Below are positions 23,877 to 24,868 of a stretch of DNA of 64,000 nt, piece by piece. Origin of the DNA: Bacillota bacterium. Its GTDB lineage: Bacteria; Bacillota; Clostridia; Oscillospirales; Acutalibacteraceae. The notes beneath the pieces were generated by a model that saw only the letters and a program-made list of their open reading frames with translations, was not told the origin of the DNA and made no database searches. Made by a program: the position numbers and the translations under genes. Where the stretch lies: assembly GCA_022706685.1 (NCBI GenBank), contig JAKJCA010000005.1, forward strand, positions 1 to 64,000, in the 5' to 3' direction. Each line of letters opens with the position of its first letter. The stretch's first letter is position 1.

Positions 23877-24155
23877 TTATGCCTGGTCCCTCATCTCAGC
23901 GAAACAAGCGCTGCAGTAGACGGGGCGGTCTTCGCGGGGTTTGAACGGAACCTTCGCGGCCGCTCCGCATTTGGCGCAGACGGCGTCGAACTGCTCGCGT
24001 TCACCGCGGCTGGCGTTCTTCCTGTTGTCGCGGCAAGCTTTGCAGCGCTGGGGTTCGTTGGTGAAACCCTTCTCGGCATAAAACTCTTGCTCGCCCGCTG
24101 TGAAAGTGAATTCGCTGTTGCAGTCCTTGCAGATGAGTGTCTTGTCTTCGAACAT
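23877..24155 (-). CDS. Double zinc-ribbon protein
   Basis: A 92-residue soluble protein with four CxxC knuckles at Cys9/12, 38/41, 60/63 and 81/84. These make two zinc ribbons: an N-terminal one of the small probable zinc-binding family (CKDCNSEFTFTAGEQEFY, then GFTNEPQRCKAC) and a shorter second one. The first half is widespread as a stand-alone protein in Firmicutes. Function is unknown; nucleic acid or protein binding is likely. GAGGT precedes the ATG. It is the last gene of a unit beginning with a SigH-like sigma factor, with a tRNA-like RNA in the 95-base gap between them. Confidence 0.85.
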   Translation of the reverse strand: MFEDKTLICKDCNSEFTFTAGEQEFYAEKGFTNEPQRCKACRDNRKNASRGEREQFDAVCAKCGAAAKVPFKPREDRPVYCSACFAEMRDQA

Positions 24156-24181
24156 TTTTTTGACCTCGCTTGAATAATATT

Positions 24182-24246
24182 TGCCCTTGGCCGGAATCGC
24201 ACCGGCACCTTTGGATGAACAACGCTCTACTTTAAGCTACGCGGGC
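24182..24246 (-). ncRNA. tRNA-like RNA with truncated anticodon arm
   Basis: Read on the minus strand the 65 bases divide as acceptor GCCCGCG, TA, D arm GCTT-AAAGTA-GAGC, G, a 12-base mini-arm with a 3-bp TTG/CAA stem, AGGT, T arm GCCGG-TGCGATT-CCGGC, acceptor CAAGGGC and discriminator A. D and T arms match tRNA patterns closely, in the right order and spacing. Against a working tRNA: the anticodon arm is 5 bases short, position 55 is G instead of U, the D loop lacks GG, two acceptor pairs mismatch, and no CCA is encoded. It starts 5 bases after the sigma factor stop codon. It may be a pseudo-tRNA, a processed regulatory RNA or a processing signal. Confidence 0.55.
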
Positions 24247-24250
24247 ATAT

Positions 24251-24802
24251 TCAACTGTTTTTGAGTTTTCGCCTGGCTCTTTGGATGGCGTTCGCCGCGG
24301 CTTTCACACCCGAACCGAGGTGCGCGGCGGTTTGTGCGGCGGTCATACCCGAGAAAGAACAGCGGAATGCTTCTCGCTCGAAATCGGTCAGCCCAGTGTA
24401 ATATACTTCAATGAGCTTTTCCGCGATTTCGTCCGCTTCGGCAACACGCTCCGGATCAGATTCGCCGGGAACGGATGTGTTTTCGTCGAGCGGGCAGGTA
24501 TCGTTGAGAACACTGTGTTTTTTTGCCAGCTGGGTTCTCAGGCAGGAGGCAAGGCGGTTATTGATACAGGCGTAGGCGTAGGTCCTTAGGGATGCGCCGC
24601 AATCCGGCCTGAAAGAGCAAACCGCCGACAGGAACGCGATGAGCCCCTCCTGGACAAGGTCGTCGGTTTCGAGCCCGGGGACTCTCATCGACTTCGCTCT
24701 GGCTTTGACGAAAGGAACCACCTGTTTGACCAGGGCCGTCATTGCCGCGCTGTCACCGCGCTGCGCGAGTTCAACAAGGAGGGGATCGAAGCTTTCGCTC
24801 AT
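24251..24802 (-). CDS. Sigma-70 family sigma factor, SigH-like
   Basis: A 183-residue sigma factor with regions 2 and 4. Region 2 shows ETDDLVQEGLIAFLSAVCSF, the core-binding helix, then SLRTYAYACINNRLAS. This resembles SigH (Spo0H) more than ECF factors because of the FRPDCGASLRTYAYACI pattern. Region 4 (about 130-183) ends in a helix-turn-helix, MTAAQTAAHLGSGVKAAANAIQRARRKLK. GAGGTG precedes ATG 24802. It has a strong sigma-A promoter upstream and heads the operon with the tRNA-like RNA and the zinc-ribbon gene. Whether it is the sporulation SigH or a paralog is uncertain, since true SigH normally sits near the secE/nusG region. Confidence 0.82.
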   Translation of the reverse strand: MSESFDPLLVELAQRGDSAAMTALVKQVVPFVKARAKSMRVPGLETDDLVQEGLIAFLSAVCSFRPDCGASLRTYAYACINNRLASCLRTQLAKKHSVLNDTCPLDENTSVPGESDPERVAEADEIAEKLIEVYYTGLTDFEREAFRCSFSGMTAAQTAAHLGSGVKAAANAIQRARRKLKNS

Positions 24803-24839: not shown

Positions 24840-24868
24840 ATAATAGCGCGGAAAAATCCTTTTGTCAA
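24840..24868 (-). promoter_or_regulatory. Strong sigma-A promoter for the sigma factor gene
   Basis: Perfect TTGACA (24868-24863), 17 bases, TATTAT (24845-24840), 38 bases before the ATG. Confidence 0.8.

Follow-up and report, generated by a model that had tools for sequence, protein, structure and literature searches.

A 65-nt RNA element, with a SigH-like sigma factor gene on its 5' side and the gene of a zf_Tbcl double zinc-finger protein on its 3' side in a 64-kb window (the whole 64,000-nt stretch of clostridial DNA analysed here), is very likely an exapted tRNA-Thr(GGU) gene that once stood behind sigH. Our main reading, to which we give a probability of about one half, is that the former tRNA-Thr has been kept as a folded element of the sigH/zf_Tbcl interval that marks the intergenic RNA for cleavage. 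No description of such an element was found in the open-licence content of PubMed Central, and its origin from tRNA-Thr, as shown by sequence comparison, appears to be new.

The element and its locus

On the minus strand of the window the sigma gene is followed by an AUAU box, the 65-nt element, 26 nt containing the ribosome-binding region and the zf_Tbcl gene (Table 1). The sequence-only reading had placed the element at positions 24182-24246, starting 5 bases behind the sigma stop codon and with its last base 26 nt from the zinc-finger ATG; all of this is correct, the first base being fifth after the stop codon, behind a 4-nt AUAU spacer, and the strand, which it left unstated, is the minus. 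Profile searches likewise bear out the two neighbours it named: the sigma protein matches TIGR02937 (79.5 bits) and SigH models at 64-76 bits, under their cut-offs, being the top SigH-model match of its genome and still under the SigH cut-off, and the zinc-finger protein is a zf_Tbcl/zf_Tbcl_2 protein. The two genes are probably read as one transcript, since one promoter-like site precedes the sigma gene and a consensus scan of the window detected nothing resembling a second promoter or a terminator in the interval that separates them. The AUAU box was also considered as a promoter and was ruled out, as the same scan found no promoter-like site there.

Table 1. Features of the sigH/zf_Tbcl locus in the window, and raiA RNAs at other zf_Tbcl loci
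Feature	Position	Strand	Basis
Promoter-like site TTGACA-17 nt-TATTAT, 5' of sigma gene (candidate only)	24840..24868	-	Consensus scan, 11/12 matches
SigH-like sigma-70 factor, 183 aa	24251..24802	-	Profile matches
AUAU box, abutting the element's 5' end	24247..24250	-	Exact in 48/68 distinct elements
Whole RNA element, very likely tRNA-Thr-derived	24182..24246	-	RF00005 40.2 bits; R1 85.2 bits (R1 seed includes the window's own element); tRNA-Thr(GGU) homology
Acceptor 5' strand GCCC, partner 24183-24186	24243..24246	-	RF00005 alignment; covariation
D arm: 4 bp, 6-nt loop without GG	24224..24237	-	RF00005 alignment; loop survey of 68 elements
Shortened anticodon arm UUG-UUCAUC-CAA	24211..24222	-	RF00005 alignment; covariation
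T arm GCCGG-UGCGAUU-CCGGC	24190..24206	-	RF00005 alignment; covariation
Acceptor 3' strand GGGC; 24182 is a discriminator-like A; no CCA	24183..24186	-	Sequence
zf_Tbcl ribosome-binding region AAGCGAGG	24164..24171	-	Upstream listing of zf_Tbcl loci
zf_Tbcl double zinc-finger protein, 92 aa	23877..24155	-	PF13451 87.1 bits, PF23477 66.9 bits; TIGR04272
raiA RNA (RF03072) directly 5' of zf_Tbcl	L107:1260-1467; L114:1079-1284		
raiA RNA directly 5' of zf_Tbcl (here as in L107 and L114, families with zf_Tbcl not behind sigH)	L176, L182, L193, L194, L197, L204, L207, L213, L216, L228, L230		

The tRNA-like layout proposed earlier is recovered by cmscan, in which RF00005 aligns over its full model (1-71) at 24246-24182 at 40.2 bits against a gathering value of 29 (E 5e-05 for the 64-kb window). 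Inspection of the sequence also agrees with the earlier description of its departures from a working tRNA: the anticodon arm is truncated to a 3-bp stem (UUG/CAA) with a 6-nt loop in place of a 5-bp stem and 7-nt loop, position 55 of the T loop is G, T-loop UUC is absent, the D loop lacks GG, and CCA is not encoded. The element is the lowest-scoring of the 39 RF00005 matches in its genome, ARAGORN predicts no tRNA gene anywhere in the window, and positions 24100-24320 gave only RF00005 matches up to E 1, with no T-box or other Rfam leader. Intact tRNA-Thr(GGU) and tRNA-Gly(CCC) genes are present elsewhere in the genome, and the element is therefore not needed for decoding. The lone 65-nt sequence folds no better than its shuffles (minimum free energy z -0.63); because single-sequence folding is thus unremarkable, the case for a folded element is built on the covariance model and the comparison of relatives.

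Conservation and covariation

A search of 60 relatives detected a homologue of the zinc-finger gene in 53, and among the 80 zinc-finger loci retained from genome contigs the upstream listing shows the element again and again. Sixty-one elements were extracted, of which 24, picked for standard 3' length, make up the alignment A2 and the covariance model R1, and 44 make up A1, a structure-blind MAFFT alignment. At 44 bits or more R1 has 35 matches in the 60 relatives, every one of them 26-97 nt 5' of zf_Tbcl and on its strand, and the matches remote from zf_Tbcl, ordinary tRNAs included, reach at most 40.7 bits among the matches listed. At E 0.01, R1 matched 67 of 98 zinc-finger loci, a set drawn from 110 (L031-L140) by omitting seven duplicates and five loci that have no element in the upstream listing (L125, L126, L130, L135 and L139); the search additionally took in L145 and L146. 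Among the carriers is the cultured Ruminococcus bicirculans 80/3 (L132), whose element occupies 1411-1474 of NZ_HF545616.1:346484-349759. Across the order, a search at E 1e-8 under strict filters gave matches in 92 of the 295 genomes and in 58 of the 149 genera sampled, counts that were taken irrespective of genomic context and in which some of the 72-74-nt matches may represent real tRNAs. The 24 seed sequences share 28 invariant columns, and the sigma proteins of element-type loci are only about 30% like that of the window. On this comparative footing, the element is no local accident.

The sequence-only reading had looked to relatives with the sigma/zinc-ribbon pair for support, and in most of these the arms persist, compensatory changes occur and the short anticodon arm is conserved. 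In A1, 95.1% of cells pair and 20 cells carry two-sided changes, the shuffles giving 4.1, with none of 500 shuffles reaching the observed covariation. In A3, comprising 68 distinct elements, 93.9% of cells pair and 10 of the 17 pairs show changes on both sides, including all three pairs of the short anticodon stem, with the qualification that A3 was fitted to the model and is hence biased towards it. In both alignments the cells count sequences rather than independent events, and relatedness inflates the figures. Individual substitutions include G-C to A-U at pair 7-66 (four sequences), a two-sided change of the second acceptor pair (seven sequences in A3), UUG/CAA to AUG/CAU in the anticodon stem of L076, and acceptor strands compensated as UCUC/GAGA in L208 and GUCC/GGAC in L188.

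The loops follow a different pattern across the 68 elements. The T loop is 7 nt long in 67, the D loop ranges over 3-13 nt and the loop of the anticodon arm over 2-52 nt, an anticodon arm of 17 nt being retained just once. D-loop GG occurs in nine and T-loop UUC in two, the contacts between the D and T loops look lost, and in 23 the T stem is joined to the 3' side of the acceptor by 1-5 nt instead of the canonical three. Overall, the arms are retained and the decoding end is not.

AUAU stands exactly and directly 5' of 48 of the 68 elements, whereas only two of the 14 real tRNA-Thr genes at sigH-type loci have it; A-rich sequence follows 3', and CCA at or just past the element's end occurs in six. 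The spacer 5' of AUAU folds better on average than its mononucleotide shuffles (mean z -1.40, n=68), with z below -2 in 20 of the 68, and often forms a hairpin. Pairing between the AU-rich flanks, seen in the fold of the window, was ruled out, as the flanks of one element pair no better with each other than with flanks swapped between species.

Descent from a threonine tRNA gene

In other Clostridia, the same place behind sigH is occupied by tRNA-Gly(CCC) and tRNA-Thr(GGU). The 30 loci giving the best R1 matches beyond the order divide into 14 with an element next to zf_Tbcl and 16 with an ordinary tRNA; tRNA-Thr(GGU) accounts for 14 of the latter, accompanied by a sigma gene in 13 loci and by an adjoining tRNA-Gly(CCC) in 11. 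The sequence of the sigH-locus tRNA-Thr, GCCCATGTAGCTCAG...AGAGCG...GGTTCAAATCCG...GGGCTCCA, is a close match to the element. Position and the acceptor, D-arm and T-arm sequences are thus held in common, whereas the element lacks the anticodon arm and CCA, and usually D-loop GG and U55, and is followed by zf_Tbcl where tuf follows the tRNA-Thr in L149 and L150, the two loci read gene by gene. Further, intermediates survive in which sigH is followed by a real tRNA-Gly(CCC), a half-degenerate tRNA-Thr and zf_Tbcl (L153, L160, L168, L218 and others); the elements of these four loci have T-loop UUC and D-loop GG, and ARAGORN reads that of L160 as a tRNA of unknown kind.

A first isoacceptor comparison, which used Thr genes picked by R1, was redone with the tRNAs of one closed genome (G100; 34 isoacceptors, anticodon arms removed). 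Thr(GGU) was best for 36 of the 68 elements and within the top three for 62, and some Thr isoacceptor was best for 45. When 11 elements, nearly all from beyond the order, were compared whole, Thr(GGU) ranked first for six, second for two and sixth for three. When 69 elements were compared solely with the tRNAs of their own genomes, Thr(GGU) was in no case the nearest, and Ala-CGC came first for 23, Phe for 19 and Thr-UGU for 10; the own-genome Thr(GGU) is a diverged copy. On descent from tRNA-Thr(GGU), the anticodon arm shrank to a stem of 3 bp, CCA disappeared, as did D-loop GG and U55 in most cases, and the AUAU box was gained on the 5' side.

The element has also decayed in places. In a class sample of 60 zinc-finger loci, chosen for family spread among the matches listed, a sigma gene lies just upstream in 37, of which 12 have an R1 match (E 0.1) other than tRNA-Gly and nine have tRNA-Gly. 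Only the acceptor and T arm remain in L189, and in L211, L215, L227 and L231 the gap between sigH and the zinc-finger gene is short and has no element. L198, L199 and L200 carry an intact tRNA-Gly(CCC) together with a bare short hairpin that has an acceptor-like stem and AU-rich flanks and seems to be a shrunken relic of tRNA-Thr. Given such loci with no element or with a hairpin only, the element is long-lived but not indispensable, and is dispensable in the lineages that lack it. No claim is based on pattern matching for the order of arm loss, since its patterns pick up tRNA-Gly too and overlook diverged arms, and in some loci it misplaced the stop codon of the sigma gene (negative spacers).

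These loci outline a path of descent, with living intermediates, from a working tRNA gene to a non-decoding bacterial RNA element, and reveal which parts of a tRNA persist once translation no longer selects them. They also offer a possible explanation for weak tRNA calls at the sigH/zf_Tbcl place in Clostridia.

Proposed function and comparison with known RNAs

Under the main reading, sigH and zf_Tbcl would be co-transcribed from a promoter 5' of sigH, the element would fold within the intergenic RNA and flag it for an endonuclease, and cleavage would give the two messages separate ends and lifetimes. RNase P would cut at AUAU/GCCC and RNase Z past the discriminator base; alternatively, another endonuclease could cut at the AU-rich flanks. 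As far as the sequences suggest, splitting of the transcript by recruited RNase P or Z is the most plausible of the proposals in the sequence-only reading, and it gains weight from the element's origin in a real tRNA-Thr gene that occupied this place. The parent tRNA must have been excised from such a transcript; on the simplest account, this service outlived decoding in the element. We infer that the element probably functions as a processing signal, and a foldable 5' spacer would suit a protected sigH 3' end. Against efficient cleavage by RNase P counts the lack of a 3' RCCA, and the looser acceptor geometry and apparently lost D/T contacts may weaken that cleavage. The AUAU box exceeds what RNase P is known to need, which also counts against the processing model, as do the lineages that lack the element and the unremarkable single-sequence fold.

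The closest parallel lies in the t-elements of plant mitochondria, which the available text of PMC11658184 describes as descendants of tRNA genes and as substrates of RNase P and RNase Z, and with which the element shares homology to a tRNA gene, a tRNA-like fold, a position at an mRNA end and a non-decoding nature. Two features of t-elements can be recognized here, namely descent from a tRNA gene and location at the end of a protein-coding message, the latter through the sigH/zf_Tbcl interval with co-transcription as inferred above. In contrast to t-elements, the element belongs to a bacterial chromosome, is found at one fixed locus conserved over many families, and has a cleavage that is a proposal. 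A serious, if tentative, possibility is that the tRNA-Thr of the sigH locus has been kept purely for its processing signals, as a bacterial t-element running through many families of Clostridia.

A different and rather unlikely role is that of a leader regulator, in which the tRNA shape would bind a protein or ligand, possibly zf_Tbcl itself or a tRNA-binding protein, and control translation or decay of the zf_Tbcl message. The tight coupling to zf_Tbcl and the short distance to its start would suit such a role, as would the raiA RNA that holds the same place before other zf_Tbcl genes. However, the window leader, the only one folded whole, showed no alternative fold hiding the ribosome-binding site, AAGCGAGG is conserved even where the element is missing, the flanks pair no better than flanks taken from mismatched species, and no terminator-like site was seen between the two genes of the window. 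Less probable still is a functionless, decaying tRNA-Thr pseudogene whose decay was slowed merely by chance and shared ancestry. The clear decay series, down to a hairpin or nothing, and the unremarkable single-sequence folding fit this, but covariation in the arms, the 28 invariant seed columns set against such dissimilar sigma proteins, the gained AUAU box and the spread of matches over 58 of the 149 sampled genera all speak against it. A small RNA of 60-75 nt that is released to act in trans as a decoy or stress RNA, for which the sequence analysis found no supporting evidence, is quite improbable, for even if a tRNA shape could be excised and stable and the tRNA-Other of B. cereus acts outside translation (available text of PMC3399842), the loop sequences are variable, the loop of the anticodon arm measures 2-52 nt, no promoter of its own is seen in the window and strong matches always lie beside zf_Tbcl.

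That B. cereus pseudo-tRNA, described in the available text of PMC3399842 as having a Trp anticodon and lying beside a genomic island, is likewise tRNA-derived; the element is set apart from it, as there described, by the lack of a 7-nt anticodon loop and by its fixed sigH/zf_Tbcl place.

The raiA (ModT) RNA, RF03072, resembles the element in being a structured RNA directly 5' of zf_Tbcl, in other families, and differs from it in its approximately 209 positions and its fold; the element fails RF03072. A search with this model gave no match in the window or the 60 relatives and 56 among 291 class genomes, at least 19 of which, by comparison of coordinates, lie directly 5' of zf_Tbcl. In the class sample, raiA RNA precedes zf_Tbcl in 11 of the 23 loci without a sigma gene and in none of the 37 with one, and it is absent from all 15 genomes of the 30-locus set that have both the element and zf_Tbcl. 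This mutual absence may be explained by descent, since the carriers belong to other families. According to the available text of PMC11706538, C. difficile that has lost raiA RNA shows lower expression of part of the SigH regulon and higher tRNA levels; comFC and raiA are named there as neighbours of the RNA, and the word "zinc" is absent. The little-known zf_Tbcl protein is tied to sigH and to raiA RNA, each of which has a link to the exit from growth, and our guess is that the element and raiA RNA have a common role in leaving growth.

Some minor observations concern the zf_Tbcl leaders. The 8 nt of the ribosome-binding region are conserved in most of the zf_Tbcl loci listed. L185, L190 and L220 have an apparently conserved leader approximately 150 nt 5' of zf_Tbcl, with no Rfam match at gathering score, which is possibly a third RNA preceding this gene. 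Finally, the zf_Tbcl locus L046 contains a Gut-1 RNA (RF01706) at 1039-1120, scoring 50.5 bits against a gathering value of 50.
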